DNA of 33,205 nucleotides from Bacteroidota bacterium. GTDB taxonomy: Bacteria > Bacteroidota > Bacteroidia > Bacteroidales > JADFUO01. Below are positions 5,609 to 13,839 of this stretch, in pieces. A program made the position numbers and the translations under genes. The stretch covers positions 1 to 33,205 of the forward strand of contig JAUXFX010000013.1 in the NCBI GenBank assembly GCA_030622635.1, written 5' to 3'. The notes under the pieces were generated by a model that ran no database searches, was not told the origin of the DNA, and saw only the letters and a program-made list of their open reading frames with translations. The first letter of the stretch is position 1; each line of letters starts with the position of its first letter.

Positions 5609-6634
5609 ATGAACGAAAATATTGATCCAAGCGGCAAACATTTAAGTCAGGTAGAAAAAGAAATTGAAAAGGTTTTACGACCATCCGACTTTAGTGGCTT
5701 TTTCGGTCAGCTAAAAGTTGTTGAAAACCTGAAAATATTTGTAGAAGCTACAAAACAGAGAGGCGAAGCGCTGGATCATATATTATTGCATGGACCTCCT
5801 GGATTGGGTAAAACAACTCTTTCATACATAATTGCTAATGAGCTGGAAGTTAATATCAGGGTATCTTCAGGTCCGGTGCTTGATAAACCGGGCGACCTTG
5901 CGGGCTTGCTTACAAATCTTGAAGATAATGATGTTCTTTTTATTGATGAGATTCACAGGTTAAGCCCTGTTGTTGAAGAATATTTATATTCTGCCATGGA
6001 AGACTATAAGATTGATATTATGATTGAAACCGGTCCGAATGCCAGAAGTGTACAAATAAATTTAAGCCCGTTTACTCTTATAGGTGCTACTACACGTTCC
6101 GGATTACTAACTGCTCCTCTCAGGTCGCGTTTCGGAATAAACTTACGTTTATCATATTACGAAGCTGATATTCTGAAAAAAATTATCCATCGTTCTGCAA
6201 AAATATTAAGAGTTCCTATCAGCGATGATGCTGCTGATGAAATTGCCAGACGTAGCAGGGGAACACCAAGAATTGCCAATTTACTTTTAAGGAGAGTAAG
6301 AGATTTTGCCCAAATAAAAGGAGATGGTAATATTGATATTGATATTTCCCAAATTGCCCTTTCAGCTCTTAATGTTGATAAAAACGGTCTTGATGAAATG
6401 GATAACAAGATTCTTTCAACCATTATTGATAAATTTAAGGGCGGACCTGTTGGAATTACAACTATTGCAACTGCCGTAGCAGAAGAGGCAGGTACTATTG
6501 AAGAAGTATATGAACCATTTTTGATCCAGGAAGGATATTTGATGAGAACTCCAAGAGGAAGAGAAGCTACAGAAATGGCTTATAAACATCTTGGGAAGAT
6601 AAAACATTCAGAACAGAGGAAATTGTTTGATTAA
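5609..6634 (+). CDS. ruvB: Holliday junction branch migration helicase RuvB
   Basis: A 341-residue AAA+ motor of the RuvAB complex, which drives branch migration of Holliday junctions during recombinational repair. Walker A is GPPGLGKT (about residues 62-69), Walker B is FIDEIHRL (about 111-118), sensor 1 is GATTRSGLL, and the arginine-finger and lid segments are present (APLRSRFG). The C-terminal winged helix ends with [15 protein letters not shown]. Length matches the family. It has its own promoter-like sequence and is followed 25 nt later by queG on the same strand. Confidence 0.97.
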
Positions 6635-6659: not shown

Positions 6660-7592
6660 GTGAACTTATCTAAAAATAAAGACGAGATAACCCTGCTTAT
6701 CAAATCAAGTGCTTATGAGCTTGATTTTTCGTTTTGTGGTGTGTCGAAGGCTGATTATCTTAAAGATGAAGCTGTAAAGCTGAAAAATTGGCTTGATAAT
6801 AAAAAACACGGGCAAATGACTTACATGCAAAATAATTTTGAAAAACGACTTGATCCAGGTTTGTTAGTTGAAAATGCTAAATCAATTATTTCAGTTCTGT
6901 TAAACTATTACCCTAAAAAAAAACTTACGACTGAAAATAATTACAAAATTGCAAAATACGCTTATGGAAAAGATTATCATTTTGTATTAAAGAATAAATT
7001 ACATAAACTTATATCAATAATTGAAAATAATACCGGTAAAAGAAATTACCGTGTATTTGTTGATTCGGCGCCGGTTATGGAAAAAGCATGGGCACAAAAA
7101 AGCGGACTGGGCTGGATTGGGAAAAATACCTGTTTGATAAATAAAAATATTGGTTCTTTCTTTTTTATCGGGCAAATTATTATTGACCTTGAGTTAAATT
7201 ATGATAAACACGGGAAAAATTATTGTGGTGATTGTACAAAATGTATTGATGCCTGCCCGACCGGTGCAATAACCAAGCCCTTTGAAATTGATGCAAACAA
7301 GTGTATTTCTTATCTTACAATTGAATATAAAAATGAACTTCCTAAAGAATTGAAAAGTAAATTCAATAACTGGATTTTCGGTTGTGATATTTGTCAGGAT
7401 GTTTGCCCGTGGAACAGATTTGCAAAACCTCACAATGAGCCTGCATTTTATCCAAATGAAGGTTTACAAAAAATGAAAAAAAATGACTGGGAAAATTTAA
7501 ATGAAGAAAAATTCAAAAAAATTTTCAGTGATTCTGCAGTGAAACGAATAAAATTTGAAGGGTTGAAACGAAATATTGAGTTTTTATTATAG
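6660..7592 (+). CDS. queG: Epoxyqueuosine reductase QueG
   Basis: A 310-residue enzyme for the last step of queuosine synthesis, reducing epoxyqueuosine to queuosine in tRNA with cobalamin and two [4Fe-4S] clusters. Ligand sets are visible: C189-x2-C192-x2-C195-x3-C199-P, then C242-x2-C245-x3-C249-P. The [12 protein letters not shown] segment holds the conserved Asp135, and [12 protein letters not shown] follows. It lacks the long C-terminal HEAT region of E. coli QueG (379 residues), as is usual in Bacteroidota. The start is a GTG at 6660, chosen because it gives the standard N-terminus and no ATG precedes it in frame nearby. Probably co-transcribed with ruvB. Confidence 0.94.
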
Positions 7593-7639
7593 AAATACAA
7601 ATGTTTACATGGAAACAGGTTTTAGTTTCTGCATAACTC

Positions 7640-7796
7640 CAATTTATTATTTCATTAAATTTTTCATCTTCAAGAACTAAATTAGCTCCCTGGCCTGTTT
7701 TTTCTGCCGGCTGAAATAATAAAACAATTTTTCCTTTGAATGGAGGATTTTTTGCAATTCTTTTCTGAATTCTATAAGTTTGTTATCAATTAACAT
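7640..7796 (-). pseudogene. Remnant of an M20-family amidohydrolase/peptidase
   Basis: An ATG at 7796 opens MLIDNKLIEFRKELQK, which looks like the N-terminus of M20 amidohydrolases (IEFRKELHxNPE). A different frame then reads NPPFKGKIVLLFQPAEKTGQ, followed by GANLVLEDEKFNEI. This corresponds to the conserved mid-protein segment around LLFQPAEE of the same family. The join lies at a short A-run followed by TCC (about 7747-7753), consistent with deletion between two similar KNP-coding sites that removed roughly 70 residues. The C-terminal two thirds are also missing. It begins 20 nt after the GNAT gene on the same strand, so the ancestral gene probably ended that operon. Family assignment is from memory of the motif. 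Confidence 0.6.
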
Positions 7797-7816
7797 AATA
7801 TTACAAATATGGTTAA

Positions 7817-8257
7817 TTATTTTTTATAGTATCTCAACTCAAGATATGGGTTAATAAATCCAACTTTTTTGTATAAAAAAATTGCCGGATTATCAGGTTC
7901 TACATGTAATGCTATGTTTCCTTTTGATGTTTGAATAGCTTTTTTCATGAGTTCTTTTCCAATCCCATTTCCTCTATAATCCTTATGTACTGCAATATAT
8001 ACTAAAACGTTCTCCGGTATATAACCTTTCATTTTTGTTTGGTTCATTACTATTACGCCGTTAATTTTCCCATCAACTCGATTTATTAAAATGAATCCGC
8101 CAAATGCAGGATTTGAACTAAGGGCATATTCAACCGACCTTTCAATATTTTCCCACATGTCTCCATATTCATCTAAATGTCCATACAAAAAATTGATAAT
8201 TTCATTTTTTTCTAATGTACTTACTGAATCAATTGAGTTTAAAATTTCTATTTTCAT
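7817..8257 (-). CDS. GNAT-family N-acetyltransferase
   Basis: A 146-residue GCN5-related acetyltransferase. The acetyl-CoA pyrophosphate-binding motif A is clear: VHKDYRGNGIGKELMKKAI (R-x-x-G-x-G). Motif B follows as HVEPDNPAIFLYKKVGFI. The substrate cannot be told from sequence; the family covers amino acids, peptides, amines and antibiotics. It sits 61 nt downstream of the symporter gene and 20 nt upstream of a decayed M20 deacylase on the same strand. An acetylase and a deacylase next to an amino-acid-racemase-like gene suggest N-acyl amino-acid chemistry, but that is inference. Confidence 0.88.
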   Translation of the reverse strand: MKIEILNSIDSVSTLEKNEIINFLYGHLDEYGDMWENIERSVEYALSSNPAFGGFILINRVDGKINGVIVMNQTKMKGYIPENVLVYIAVHKDYRGNGIGKELMKKAIQTSKGNIALHVEPDNPAIFLYKKVGFINPYLELRYYKK

Positions 8258-8318
8258 AATTTATAATTATTTTTAATTTAATTGTTTAAGTTTTAATATT
8301 TATTTCTAACAGCTTAAA

Positions 8319-9724
8319 TTACTCTATAATCAGTTTTTTCCCAATTACTATCTTTCCAATAAAGAAAACTATGATTGAAAATACGACACCAAAAACACTT
8401 GGCTGCATTGCATATTTATAATCAGTATTCATAAATATTATAGTAGCTATTGCGGAAAAAATCATTACAATAAAAATTAAATTATTAAATGATTTTGAGG
8501 TTCTCTTTGTAAAAATCCCAACAATAACAGGTAAAATAATACTTGGAGCCCACAATGAATAAGTTAAAAGTAATAAATCAATAATATTAGGAAGGATAAG
8601 TGCTAACAATATGCCGGAAGCACCTAAAGTAAACGAACTTATTCTTGAAATCTTAAGACTATTCTTGAAATTATTTTTCGCTTTTACAATATATTCTTCA
8701 TAAAAGTCTTTTACAAAAATTGCGGTTGATGAATTTAAAATTGAATCGGCAGATGACATTATTGCACTTAATAAAGCTGCAATGATTAAACAACCAATAT
8801 ATGGATTATTTAATTTTAAAATTGTCTGAGGTAATGCTTGTTCAGGATCAATATCAGGAAACGATAAACTAGCATAAAGAGCTAGAAAAAATAAAATAAC
8901 AGGAAAAGTAAAAAATAAAAAAATCCCTGAACCTATAATTCCTTTTTTTTTTCTTTAATATTCTTTCCTATACAGTAACGTGTTGCATAGCCTGGAGCAA
9001 AGGTTTCTCCTAATAAGAAAGCAATAAAAGTTGAAAATAGAAACACCCATCCCTTACCTCCTTCCAATTGAAAGAATTCATTTTGTATTACTGTTTGAAT
9101 ATTAGCTCGTTGTGTAAGTAGTTCAGGTATGCAAAAAGCTAGTGTGATTAGAAAGCCTAATATTAATATAATAAATTGGTAAACATCTGTATGAATAACT
9201 GCTAATAAGCCACCAGCTGTACTATATAAAATTACAATACCTCCACTTATAATAATAGCCCCAATATATGGTAATTGAGGTATTATTGACGTAACAATTT
9301 TGCCAAAAGCAACCATTTGAGCGACTAAAACACCTATAGAAAATAAAAGTGATAAAACAAATGCTGAAAAACGACATTTAGCATTAAAACGATGACCGAA
9401 AAAACCGGCAACCGTATAAAGTTTGGCTTTGCGAAAATATGGAGCAACAAACCAACCTGAAAAAATAAAATGAACATACAAACCACTTGAAACAACCAGC
9501 ATTAAAATTCCCCATTCATAGGTTTTTCCAAGTGCACCAATTGATGATCCGCCGCCGATAACTGTAGCACTCATAGTACAAAGTAGAAAAAGCCAACCAA
9601 CATTCCGTCCGGCAACTAAAAAGTCATCATCATTATGAATATTTTTAGCATGACGAATTCCTTTAATGAGAATAAAAGCGAAATATATCGCAATAATACT
9701 ATATTGTATAATAGGGTATTTCAT
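8319..9724 (-). pseudogene. Sodium:solute symporter (SSS family), split by a frameshift at a poly-A run
   Basis: Two overlapping-frame parts make one transporter of about 470 residues. The first part (9724 down to 8933, 263 residues) holds about seven membrane segments with the SSS signatures GGGSSIGALGKTYEWG and AGGLLAVIHTDVYQF. It ends just after a run of ten A (coding strand) with KKKEL then TAG. From 8942 the -1 frame continues unbroken (GIIGSGIFLFFTFPVILFF, then LALYASL) through MSSADSILNSS to the stop at 8319, supplying the remaining helices. The run contains A AAA AAG in the zero frame, the dnaX-type -1 slippery heptamer, so recoding could restore the full protein. A homopolymer sequencing error or real inactivation are alternatives. 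The start ATG overlaps the methyltransferase stop by one base, indicating translational coupling. The substrate is unknown. Confidence 0.8.
8943..8953 (-). other. A10 run with A AAA AAG slippery heptamer
   Basis: On the coding strand the codons are GAA AAA AAA AAG GAA TTA TAG. A -1 slip gives GGA ATT ATA GGT and enters the long open frame encoding the rest of the symporter. Eight or eleven A residues would also restore the frame, so transcriptional slippage or a sequencing indel are equally compatible. Confidence 0.7.
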
Positions 9725-10689
9725 TAATTAGATAAGGTCTCAAAGAAATTTTGCAAATTATTACCATAATCTAAAATCGCCAATTGTCCTTGCTCTGCAT
9801 TTTGGGGGTCTAATTCTTTTGTTTGAACATGATATGATTTGCTTTCCCAAAATATTTTAATTAAATTATCAATCATTTGAAAATTGTACCAATGCGATTT
9901 GTAGTTGGAAAATGTATGGATAACTCCCGATTCAATGGTTTGTTTCACTAAGACTGGGTCTCTTTTCAAAACATGATTTTTCTTTATCAGACTCCCTTGT
10001 ATATCATAAACATCAACCTTTAAAAATGGGTCGTTTGAATATGATTTTTTGTATTGAGTTGATAGTTGTTTATATTTATTAGTAGAATAGGTATCCGGTT
10101 TGAGCCATATAGGTTGTCCACAAATATATAAGGAGGATTCGTATTGCGGAAGAGCATAAGTTTCAATATATTTTTTCATATAACAGGAAATAATTGCTAT
10201 ACCTTTTGTATTTTCCACAAATCTGTTTAACGTTTGAAACAATTTCACTGCTCCTTTTTGTCCTTGCATCGTACCAATAGTATTATTTAAATTTACTGCA
10301 ACTTGAATAGAATTAATTGGTTCAGCTTCAAAATCAAATGCAGAACCTTGTTTAAATGACAATGCAGGGGTAGCAATTTTATTAATACCGGCTTTTTTGA
10401 TTTTTTCTATTGCCAAATCCAACATCTTTTTAGAAATATCTATTCCAAAAACATTTCGAAGTTCAGGGATATGAATCCGCTGTCCATATCGCAAGTGTAA
10501 TCTTCCTGTACCGCAACCAATATCAATCAAACTAATAGGACGATTTTGCTCTTTTGTCAAATGAAGTAATATTTTATCTAATAAATTTTCTTCAAAACCC
10601 TTAAAAGCCACGATATCCGGGTGTTCAGTAACATTATGACATTCATAAAGGTGAGCACAACTATCCCATATCTTTATTTTCTGTTTCAT
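9724..10689 (-). CDS. SAM-dependent methyltransferase (class I, substrate unknown)
   Basis: A 321-residue Rossmann-fold methyltransferase. Motif I is LIDIGCGTGRLHLRYG (about residues 54-69). The acidic residue that binds the SAM ribose lies in VFGIDISKKMLDLA (about 79-92), and a later NLNNTIGTMQG segment matches the usual motif-IV region. The C-terminal half (about 170-321) has no family I recognise; it is rich in Tyr and Lys and could bind the substrate. It follows the GIY-YIG gene by 38 nt and its stop overlaps the symporter start by one base, so methyltransferase and transporter are tightly coupled. In context it may methylate a transported amino-acid-like compound; this is inference. Confidence 0.85.
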   Translation of the reverse strand: MKQKIKIWDSCAHLYECHNVTEHPDIVAFKGFEENLLDKILLHLTKEQNRPISLIDIGCGTGRLHLRYGQRIHIPELRNVFGIDISKKMLDLAIEKIKKAGINKIATPALSFKQGSAFDFEAEPINSIQVAVNLNNTIGTMQGQKGAVKLFQTLNRFVENTKGIAIISCYMKKYIETYALPQYESSLYICGQPIWLKPDTYSTNKYKQLSTQYKKSYSNDPFLKVDVYDIQGSLIKKNHVLKRDPVLVKQTIESGVIHTFSNYKSHWYNFQMIDNLIKIFWESKSYHVQTKELDPQNAEQGQLAILDYGNNLQNFFETLSN

Positions 10690-10727
10690 ATCTTGTCTTT
10701 AAATTTTCTTTTGTCATTTGTATAAGA

Positions 10728-11054
10728 TTATTTATTACCACAAGGGAAATTGTAGTATTCTCTTATATCTTGTTCTACCTTAACTCTTGAAGTTTTCCCC
10801 CCATGTTCAATATAATAAGGAGCATAGAACAAATCATTTATTGGGCAATGTTTTTTCCAGCAATCCTTTCTATCATGATTTTCAATTCTGGTTTTAACTT
10901 CCTTTGCTTCACCTATATCAATAGGATAGTATTTATCATTCTTTTTAACGATAATTAAATATACTCCGGCCATATCCTTTAATGGACTTGTATCAGAGTA
11001 AATTCCTTCAAATGAGTAGTTTTTTCCGCTACTACCTGTAACTGTTAATATCAT
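10728..11054 (-). CDS. Small GIY-YIG-like domain protein
   Basis: A 108-residue protein with a compact GIY-YIG-like core: GVYLII (about 30-35), YPIDIGEA (about 43-50, in the YIG position), Arg56 in KTRIENH, and Glu94 in KVEQDIREYY, which would be the metal-binding glutamate. GIY-YIG domains are nucleases, but stand-alone small members also occur with no assigned role. A nuclease-like protein between a racemase and a methyltransferase gene is unexpected. It may be a passenger gene or a diverged non-nuclease version. The start ATG lies 34 nt after the second stop codon that follows the racemase gene. Function is not known. Confidence 0.7.
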   Translation of the reverse strand: MILTVTGSSGKNYSFEGIYSDTSPLKDMAGVYLIIVKKNDKYYPIDIGEAKEVKTRIENHDRKDCWKKHCPINDLFYAPYYIEHGGKTSRVKVEQDIREYYNFPCGNK

Positions 11055-11148
11055 AGCATATATGTTTTAGTGATTTATTTTATTTTTTTTAAAAGAATTT
11101 CTCGTTTTTTAATTCTTTTATTACATCTTCAATGGTTATATCTTTTTG

Positions 11149-12219
11149 CTAAACAATCTTTTTTTCAATATAATTTGAATTTAAAATATTTAAAGTTCCC
11201 ATGTAATCTAATTTAAATTCAATTAAATCACCTACTTTGTAATTTTGTTCGTTTTTGCCTAAATCAACCACAATCATATCGGAACTTGCACCAGCAAACT
11301 TTATTTTATTATCAATAGGATGAATATGTTTTTCGTCAACATCAAGCAAACCTAAATCTAAAATTGCCCGACAAGAGGTTTTTCCATAATCATTTTTATC
11401 AAATTCTATTGTTTTGCCTTCAACGTTATTTCCCATTTCTCCGTTTGGTACAACAGGTTTAACCGATAGTTCTATTATTTCGGTAAACAACTTGAAAACA
11501 TCATTTTTCATTTCTTTGATCATAGTATTATTATATAAGTCGTTTCCTAAAAATAATGTTTCCCCGATACGGAAATGATTTATTCCTGTTGGCAATAATT
11601 GATTAAAAATTAATGGAATAGAAATTGAAGACCCACCTGAAACGTATGGGATATTTTTATTAAATTTTGCCTCAATTAATTGTTCGTACAGACTTAATTG
11701 TATCAATTTATCTTGATTAGGTAAAACTCCATATAGGCAATTCAAATTAGTTCCAATACCAACGACATTAATATTTACCAATTCAAATACTTTTGCATAA
11801 AAATCAATAAAATCATCTCGTAACACGCCTTCACGCAAATCACCCATTTCAATCATTATAATAATATTGTGGGTTTTATTTTGTCTTTGTGCTTCTTTAG
11901 AAAGCAATCTAATTGTTTCATATTCAGTGTTAAAACTTATATCTGCATATTTCACTATGCTTTTAATACTTCTTTTTGCAGGTGGTTTTATATATATTGT
12001 TTCAATATCATTTTTTATACTTTTAATTGTTTTAAGGTTCGACACACGTGAATCGCATATTTGAGTTATACCTAAATTCAGCACTTCTTTTAAATATTGT
12101 ATATTTCCACACAAAAGTTTAGTTACAACCGCCCATTGTATTTTATTTTTATTAAATAAATTATCTAAATAATTATAATTATGTTTTAATTTATCTTTAT
12201 GTAATTCTATAAAAGCCAT
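11149..12219 (-). CDS. Ornithine/alanine racemase-like PLP enzyme
   Basis: A 356-residue fold-type III PLP enzyme of the alanine racemase N-terminal superfamily, closest in pattern to clostridial ornithine racemase (Orr). The PLP lysine is Lys34 in VVTKLLCGN. ICDSRVSNL, MGDLREGVL, VGIGTNLNC, SGGSSISIP and HFRIGETLFLGN are all in the order expected for that family, and GASSDMIVVDLG near the C-terminus is also typical. The reaction is probably racemisation of an amino acid, ornithine being one candidate. It is the first gene of an operon with a well-placed promoter 70-100 nt upstream and a MarR gene behind it. The amber stop is followed in frame by 19 more sense codons before a TAA, hinting at a recent stop mutation or readthrough. 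Confidence 0.87.
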   Translation of the reverse strand: MAFIELHKDKLKHNYNYLDNLFNKNKIQWAVVTKLLCGNIQYLKEVLNLGITQICDSRVSNLKTIKSIKNDIETIYIKPPAKRSIKSIVKYADISFNTEYETIRLLSKEAQRQNKTHNIIIMIEMGDLREGVLRDDFIDFYAKVFELVNINVVGIGTNLNCLYGVLPNQDKLIQLSLYEQLIEAKFNKNIPYVSGGSSISIPLIFNQLLPTGINHFRIGETLFLGNDLYNNTMIKEMKNDVFKLFTEIIELSVKPVVPNGEMGNNVEGKTIEFDKNDYGKTSCRAILDLGLLDVDEKHIHPIDNKIKFAGASSDMIVVDLGKNEQNYKVGDLIEFKLDYMGTLNILNSNYIEKKIV

Positions 12220-12291
12220 GAATAATGATTAAATTCTTTAATTTTAATTTCCGTTTATAGTATAAAAACAACTTAAATTGGTTCTATGCGA

Positions 12292-12322
12292 CAAAAATAT
12301 AAAAAATAATATAAACTACAAA
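12292..12322 (-). promoter_or_regulatory. Promoter of the racemase operon
   Basis: On the minus strand TTTG (12322-12319), exactly 19 nt, then TATTTTTG (12299-12292). Both boxes match the Bacteroidota consensus TTTG-N19-21-TAnnTTTG perfectly. The predicted transcript starts near 12288, about 70 nt before the racemase ATG. The rest of the gap 12220-12515 is AT-rich, with the direct repeat ATATAAAC (about 12309 and 12347) but no clear inverted-repeat operator. Confidence 0.62.
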
Positions 12323-12515
12323 ATATAAATTAAATAAAATATAAACGGTGGCTTTACAATAAGGTATTATCTGTATGAAAATCAGGAATAAAAATGTCTG
12401 GAAAATTATTTTTGTATAAAGATTATAATAAAGAATTAATTATACAGATTAAAAACAAAATAAATTATGTTCCGTAAAACATATTTTAAGACAATTTCAA
12501 AAAATTATAATAATT

Positions 12516-12998
12516 TTACTCTTTAGGCATTATGTTGGCTTCAACTGTAATTAATGGTGAGGCTTCAACTTCTTCAATTTCTAACAAATTGATTAATAAA
12601 TCAAGAGAGTTTTGAATTTCATTTACTTGATTATCAGGTAAGTTTGTCAATTTTTTTGATAATTGCTCATGTAAAAGTGGCGGAATTTGATTAATTAGCT
12701 TTTCACCTGTTAGTGTCAATGCAATCTTTGTTATTCTTTTGTCTCCGGATTTTGGTAAACGTGCTAAAAATCCTTTTTTTTCCAGCCTGTTAATTATTCC
12801 TGTAACTGTACTTGAATTAAGAGTAAGAATATTTTTTATATCGTTGTGAGTTGATATATAATCTTTGCAACTTAGCAAATAGTTAAGACAAAGAATTTGA
12901 GGAATACTTATACCGTATTCCTTTTGCATTTTCTTTGACTCTATGTTTATAGAGCGTATAATTCTTCTAATTTTTATCAATATTTCTGTGTAATCCAA
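12516..12998 (-). CDS. MarR-family transcriptional regulator
   Basis: A 160-residue winged-helix regulator. The DNA-binding core is visible: a helix-turn-helix around LNSSTVTGIINRLEKKGFL (about residues 79-97), then the wing with RLPKSGDKRITKIALT, flanked by dimerisation helices. The last 20 residues (EEVEASPLITVEANIMPKE) form an unusual acidic tail. MarR proteins are usually ligand-responsive repressors of nearby genes. It is encoded on the same strand as, and upstream of, the racemase operon, with a 296-nt gap holding that operon's promoter, so regulation of that operon is the likely role. A TATTTTTG box at 13041-13034 is a probable promoter for this gene. Confidence 0.88.
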   Translation of the reverse strand: MDYTEILIKIRRIIRSINIESKKMQKEYGISIPQILCLNYLLSCKDYISTHNDIKNILTLNSSTVTGIINRLEKKGFLARLPKSGDKRITKIALTLTGEKLINQIPPLLHEQLSKKLTNLPDNQVNEIQNSLDLLINLLEIEEVEASPLITVEANIMPKE

Positions 12999-13033
12999 GA
13001 TTGATAAATTTTTAATAAGTCAAATATCCTAGG

Positions 13034-13041
13034 CAAAAATA
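13034..13041 (-). promoter_or_regulatory. Putative -7 box for the MarR gene
   Basis: TATTTTTGCC on the minus strand matches TAnnTTTG, 36 nt upstream of the ATG. No good -33 box is seen. Confidence 0.35.
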
Positions 13042-13140
13042 AATAATAATTTGCAATAAAGCTAATTTTTTATGGTTTACTTGACCGTATTACAAACTAA
13101 AGGATAGCGGTATATAGGATTTTACTTTTGTAGGTGATTG

Positions 13141-13188
13141 TTTTTTCTTTATAAGTTACCTAAAGTTTTATATAACATAAAGAAAAAA
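13141..13188. terminator. 12-bp inverted repeat, possible terminator after the barrel gene
   Basis: TTTTTTCTTTAT (13141-13152) is the exact reverse complement of ATAAAGAAAAAA (13177-13188), with a 24-nt loop. It lies 40-90 nt past the stop of the minus-strand barrel gene and before the MarR gene. Each strand carries a run of six T. The stem is AT-rich (one G-C pair), so it would be a weak terminator or a mere structure. Confidence 0.35.
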
Positions 13189-13227
13189 ATATTCATAATG
13201 ATGATTTTTTACTTGCAAAACGTTAAG

Positions 13228-13839
13228 TTATTTTGATCTTAAAAACTGGTAAACAAAAGAAAAAATCAGTACATCATTATACTGCCCTCTGTTAAAAAAC
13301 CGTGTTGCACCCGAAGTATGCTCTCTTATAGGAACCACCGAATTTGATGAACGCAGGTTAAACATAAAGTTATCAGTAATATAATAATACATTCCGACAA
13401 TAACACTCAGATTATGTGTATTAAATGGTTTACCAGCAAGTTCATTGCTAAAGTTTGCTTCCTCATAACTTTTAATAAAAACCCCGTAAACAGGTCCTAT
13501 CTCTACAGTAAATCTTTCGGATATAATATATTTGTAAAGAACAGGTACATCAATATATTGCAAATTTAATTTATATGATTGGTAATCATTTTCTTCCTTA
13601 GGAACCAGCCTGCTACCTTTCTGAATATAATCAATTTCCAACTGGAAAACCGATTTTTTTGAAACTTTGAGGTTTGCATAAACTCCGGCATACAATCCTG
13701 CTTTATCATAACCCGAGCAAACATCACCGGCAACCTGAGTTGCTGTCATCCCTAAAGTTATTCCACCATAAAACTCCTGGGCATTCAGCAGAAAACCACT
13801 TAACAAAAATATTATCAGAAAATTTACTTTCATACTCAT
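13228..13839 (-). CDS. Outer-membrane beta-barrel protein (PorT-like)
   Basis: A 203-residue secreted protein. A signal peptide covers about residues 1-20 (NFLIIFLLSGFLLNAQ). The rest alternates as amphipathic strands: GGITLGMTATQV, AGLYAGVYANLKV, SVFQLEIDYIQKGS, YIDVPVLYKYII, FTVEIGPVYGVFI, LSVIVGMYYYI and a final FSFVYQFL. The phrase YIDVPVLYKY is characteristic of the PorT/OMP_b-brl_2 families common in Bacteroidota. It probably forms an eight-stranded barrel; no ligand or partner can be named. It follows the polyprenyl synthase gene on the same strand, 37 nt after its stop. Confidence 0.82.
   Translation of the reverse strand: MSMKVNFLIIFLLSGFLLNAQEFYGGITLGMTATQVAGDVCSGYDKAGLYAGVYANLKVSKKSVFQLEIDYIQKGSRLVPKEENDYQSYKLNLQYIDVPVLYKYIISERFTVEIGPVYGVFIKSYEEANFSNELAGKPFNTHNLSVIVGMYYYITDNFMFNLRSSNSVVPIREHTSGATRFFNRGQYNDVLIFSFVYQFLRSK

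Follow-up and report, generated by a model that had tools for sequence, protein, structure and literature searches.

A gene for a sodium:solute symporter in the window (the whole 33,205-nt stretch of DNA analysed here) changes reading frame at a run of ten adenines, raising the question of whether the complete transporter is produced by recoding or whether the gene is broken. An earlier note on this DNA, made from the letters alone, had left four options: programmed -1 ribosomal frameshifting of the dnaX type, slippage of the transcript, a phase-variable switch, or a homopolymer error in the assembly. The evidence presented below leads us to favour, with a probability of about 0.6, an ordinary one-base frameshift caused by replication slippage at a hypermutable run of ten A, within an acquired and dispensable cluster.

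The symporter gene is interrupted by a single-base frame break

The gene occupies positions 9724 to 8319 on the minus strand and is split at the A10 run into the parts listed here, together with two motifs relevant to recoding.

8933-9724, minus strand: N-terminal part of the sodium:solute symporter in frame 0, 263 aa, with TAG at 8933-8935
8963-8969, minus strand: AGGAAAG, a weak SD-like match, 10 nt from the A-run and 14 nt from the heptamer
8943-8952, minus strand: A10 run, exactly ten A, at which the frame is lost
8942-8948, minus strand: heptamer A AAA AAG, in phase
8319-8942, minus strand: C-terminal half of the symporter in the -1 frame, 207 codons, with its first usable ATG at 8759

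The minus-strand bases across the break read ATA GGA AAG AAT ATT AAA GAA AAA AAA AAG GAA TTA TAG. The sequence bears out the earlier description of a gene split at ten A with TAG three codons further on: frame 0 (9724 to 8933) ends in KEKKKEL*, while the -1 frame continues as KKKGIIGSG... through 207 open codons to a stop at 8319. The accompanying claim that this second frame supplies the missing part of the transporter also holds, since the C half matches PF00474. When each half is searched alone, the N half aligns to profile positions 1-229 (E 9e-24) and the C half to positions 275-396 (E 6e-16), the two independently covering successive parts of the SSF profile (PF00474, TIGR00813). Taken as one chain, the joined protein aligns through the break with solved choline transporters and with a SiaT-type symporter; its closest solved relatives are of these two types and vSGLT. 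The gene thus resembles members of the SSF family in both halves and differs from them in being split by a frameshift. The length of the open -1 frame, at a coding G+C of 33%, combined with the family match, rules out an accidental ORF, and the C half carries no second disablement. Re-initiation was considered as a source of the missing part and rejected because no ATG, GTG or TTG start was found in the -1 frame between the A10 run and the ATG at 8759, which itself lies within the AIMSSADS segment. By resemblance to the vSGLT/SiaT fold, we take this segment to be TM8.

The direction and size of the break are defined by comparison with homologues. In an alignment with about 30 of these, the joined -1 product shows no gap around the break, and the residues at this point (RYCIGKNIKEKKKG in the window symporter versus RLFLAKDKKHTRRG in the closest homologue) are equally spaced. 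Because the -1 product has the exact residue spacing of the family, the run is off by one A and not by two; a two-base error was rejected, as it would leave the loop one residue shorter than that of every homologue. A single indel at a long homopolymer, spacing displaced by one base and an otherwise intact gene are therefore all found together in the symporter. The earlier note had suggested that the A-run be compared in related genomes, and the outcome speaks against a conserved site: the locus is absent from the sister genomes described below, and the closest homologue (in genome G055, about 31% identity) has an intact frame and loop DNA (AAAGATAAAAAACATACTCGCAGGGGA) that is devoid of a long A-run. 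Conservation of the run is judged on this single homologue at about 31% identity, no closer symporter orthologue being found in 393 genomes of the order and 295 of the class. When GTDB contigs were scanned for proteins close to the read-through product, only two distant Pelagibacteraceae symporters came up.

The symporter lies on a species-specific segment inserted in queG

The symporter is located within a segment that interrupts the 3' end of queG, with the following features.

7587-13221, no strand: insertion of 5.6 kb in the 3' end of queG, lacking in three sister genomes
7587-7796, minus strand: what is left of an M20-type amidohydrolase gene that is internally deleted, changed in frame and truncated
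7817-8257, minus strand: GNAT acetyltransferase; at other loci of the phylum its relatives are immediate neighbours of Orr
9724-10689, minus strand: SAM methyltransferase, its stop codon overlapping the symporter ATG (TAATG)
10728-11054, minus strand: 108-aa protein with a weak GIY-YIG match, below the Pfam cut-off
11149-12219, minus strand: ornithine-racemase-like PLP enzyme (Orr), NF040742, E 3e-99, below the curated cut-off
12516-12998, minus strand: MarR-type regulator

In three sister genomes of the same genus (about 95% nucleotide identity over the flanks), 7587-13221 is wholly missing and queG runs straight into 13222. The sisters' queG continues for about 13 codons beyond NIEFV (to ...LSYFDLKNW* in two of them), whereas in the window the last codons of queG, which encodes epoxyqueuosine reductase, are changed and the protein ends in NIEFLL*; the old queG tail (GTTAAGTTATTTTGATCTTAAAAACTGGTAA) is found on the far side of the segment, at about 13219-13249. 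Since the sisters show the ancestral state, 7587-13221 is an insertion. Its G+C content is 27.8% versus 32%.

Similar gene content recurs in the phylum at 19 loci (L224-L242), in a neighbourhood composed of a sodium:solute symporter, a GNAT acetyltransferase, an ornithine-racemase-like enzyme and an M20-type amidohydrolase. The acetyltransferase is directly beside Orr at 18 of the 19 loci, a symporter of the same superfamily adjoins at 12, and amidohydrolase-like sequence comes next at about six. The symporter-acetyltransferase-Orr cluster is intact elsewhere in the phylum, unlike in the window, where the methyltransferase, Orr and acetyltransferase flanking the symporter are intact and the amidohydrolase is a remnant. 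This remnant has a weak Pfam match (E 0.003), but it resembles, with E-values down to 2e-10, the sequence that several relatives carry downstream of Orr. No strong match to the methyltransferase of the segment was found in 295 genomes of the order or 395 of the phylum. Comparison of gene content with the Orr loci of the phylum identifies the window segment as a rearranged, partly decayed version of an amino-acid-related cluster, which was most likely gained horizontally, is specific to this species and is already minus one gene.

Long A-runs are avoided in genes and frame breaks concentrate at them

To place the symporter in its genomic context, we counted A-runs in 1.29 Mb of the same genome that had not been picked for A-runs (849 genes, 33% coding G+C), the total sampled being 1.42 Mb of the 3.13-Mb assembly, and obtained expected counts from synonymous-codon shuffles. 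Runs of A8 in genes are as frequent as expected (259 observed, 263 expected), A9 runs are depleted (32 versus 81), a single A10 remains of an expected 26, and runs of A11 or longer are absent (0 versus 27); for runs of at least A10 overall, this amounts to 1 seen versus about 52 expected. Long A-runs are thus progressively lost from genes as their length grows, with those of at least A10 being avoided genome-wide, in agreement with the length of nine reported for A-run avoidance in many bacteria (PMC1088944). The symporter tract is one of 27 runs of at least A10 in the 3.13-Mb assembly, and the very rarity of such runs in genes is what makes the coincidence of A10 and break meaningful.

Split genes were counted with an ORF-based test that excluded breaks that simply begin the next gene; it replaced a strict coding-model test for frame switches, which had too little power at long runs. 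No convincing break was observed at A8, where 154 genes are intact and the sole candidate was set aside because an ATG lies 5 nt past the run. One of 18 genes is broken at A9 (an IS transposase) and, in a small sample, two of seven at A10, the symporter included. Five candidates at A5-A7, judged by eye, each looked like a pair of different neighbouring proteins and not like a clear split gene, and an apparent third A10 split (L053) was rejected, as it consists of two full-length paralogues lying side by side, which by eye resemble chain-length determinants. The second A10 break (L042; G000:C100, A10 at 6431-6440) splits a secreted beta-helix-like protein with a C-terminal sorting domain in the +1 direction, opposite to that of the symporter, as random slippage predicts. 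The A9 case (L177; G000:C157, about 7718-9360) is an IS-like element with inverted ends AAAAAAGTTCCCCCC / GGGGGGAACTTTTTT, in which a transposase-like gene, with no match in NCBIfam, is joined by a -1 transition at A9 to a small upstream coiled-coil-like ORF. In a 37%-identical relative from another family (L213) the arrangement is the same, and the overlap again contains A9 runs.

Recoding, phase variation and assembly error as alternatives

A dnaX-like programme, in which ribosomes would shift to -1 on A AAA AAG with help from an SD-like sequence and RNA structure, was suggested by the heptamer and the upstream AGGAAAG, features that the symporter shares with E. coli dnaX. The heptamer is indeed in the correct phase but is not distinctive: it occurs in phase 140 times in the 849 genes, 18 of these with an upstream SD-like motif, so that its presence alone means little. 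AGGAAAG, which had been placed about 10 nt upstream, is at that distance from the A-run, but its spacing from the heptamer is 14 nt and not 10, and in this genome only 4-6% of start codons have an SD-like motif in front of them. The downstream fold does not stand out (z -0.4 to -1.9, mostly weak U-rich pairing, with pseudoknots outside the scope of the test), the site is unconserved in the nearest homologue (about 31%), and the genome encodes tRNA-Lys(CUU) besides UUU. To our knowledge E. coli, in which A AAA AAG is so slippery, has no tRNA-Lys CUU species. In addition, the shift in dnaX shortens the product, whereas in the symporter it would lengthen it. With spacing, structure, heptamer frequency and conservation all departing from the dnaX model, we regard programmed frameshifting as extremely improbable here. 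Slippage by RNA polymerase accords with the locus in length and direction. The frequency with which transcription inserts a single nucleotide at an A/T run rises exponentially with run length (PMC5574713), the symporter needs the equivalent of one extra A, and its ten A are of the length (at least nine) expected for such slippage; no further lesion interrupts the C half, and the A9 transition of the L177 element, with its similarly arranged 37%-identical relative, offers a parallel. The complete symporter might normally be made by such slippage, under selection, as happens with Thermus dnaX or Citrobacter tssM. In Citrobacter rodentium tssM1 an A11 run likewise lies just ahead of a premature stop with the remainder open in another frame, although there slippage has been demonstrated by experiment and recurs in a relative (PMC4256274). 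Several points speak against selection: the one homologue that can be compared (about 31%) lacks the run, the L042 break goes the opposite way, the adjoining amidohydrolase gene has decayed, and the short 263-aa product is implausible as a functional protein. The earlier suggestion of transcript slippage thus survives in its direction, and plausibly as incidental leakage, but shows no sign of selection, and we judge the selected form very unlikely. A broader variant, in which A9-A10 tracts form a tolerated slippage layer, with the IS transposase and a few acquired genes, the symporter among them, expressed at a low level via polymerase slippage only, appears slightly less likely again.

If the break were an assembly or sequencing error, the real run would be in frame and the symporter ordinary and intact. 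One wrong base would account for everything, the assembly is fragmented (279 contigs, 92.6% complete), and PCR or read stutter is worst at A10, the run length at which both broken non-IS genes break. However, there is no excess of breaks at A5-A8, which makes a homopolymer error of the long-read or 454 style unlikely, and A5-A9 lengths differ from those of sister genomes in only one of 341 comparisons, with A9 runs agreeing in five of five, which argues against a generally homopolymer-prone assembly for runs up to A9. We therefore consider an error unlikely, while giving it real weight. A phase-variable switch, in which A10 flips by one base within the population and turns the transporter on or off, would be compatible with a tract long enough for slipped-strand mispairing, and transporters are among the known phase-variable classes (PMC3711429), which counts in its favour. 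Yet runs of at least A10 are strongly selected against in the genes of this organism rather than maintained, the nearest homologue has no such run and the symporter is no obvious surface antigen, making a switch distinctly unlikely.

Proposed origin of the break and its consequences

The placement of the symporter on a species-specific inserted segment, next to a decayed gene, favours an ordinary slippage mutation. A single-base slip at the A10 run, which we infer to have been replicative, would have put the symporter out of frame, probably recently, and the break would be tolerated since the cluster is already minus a gene. Such a slip would account for all the observations, the opposite-direction L042 break among them. 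As a counterpoint to this mutational reading, the symporter shows no visible decay apart from the single base, and the methyltransferase, Orr and acetyltransferase around it are intact. No close orthologue with which to date or polarise the change was found among the 393 genomes of the order and 295 of the class. In the assembled sequence, the main product would be the 263-aa stub without the AIMSSADS region, which would be unable to form the whole LeuT-type fold. Some transcripts probably receive an extra A from RNA polymerase, and some full-length symporter may perhaps still be made as leakage through transcriptional slippage; some leakage is expected because transcriptional insertion at such runs is known and rescue has been documented (PMC4256274, PMC3017870).

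The closest parallel is provided by the poly(A)-tract frameshifts of Buchnera and Blochmannia (PMC3017870 and work cited therein), which also involve a single indel in an A tract of 9-12 nt, in a gene that is otherwise intact, in an AT-rich genome and with possible rescue by transcriptional slippage. Unlike those cases, the symporter is not a core gene of an obligate endosymbiont, is not conserved between species and sits in an insertion beside a gene that has decayed.

The genome-wide picture, in which runs of at least A10 are nearly purged from genes and breaks are concentrated where they persist, provides a usable baseline for judging recoding calls, and cautions that where a genome is AT-rich, finding A AAA AAG in phase next to a frame break carries little weight as evidence for recoding. 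Should the complete transporter prove to be made by slippage, rescue of the endosymbiont type would be extended to an acquired gene in a different kind of bacterium.
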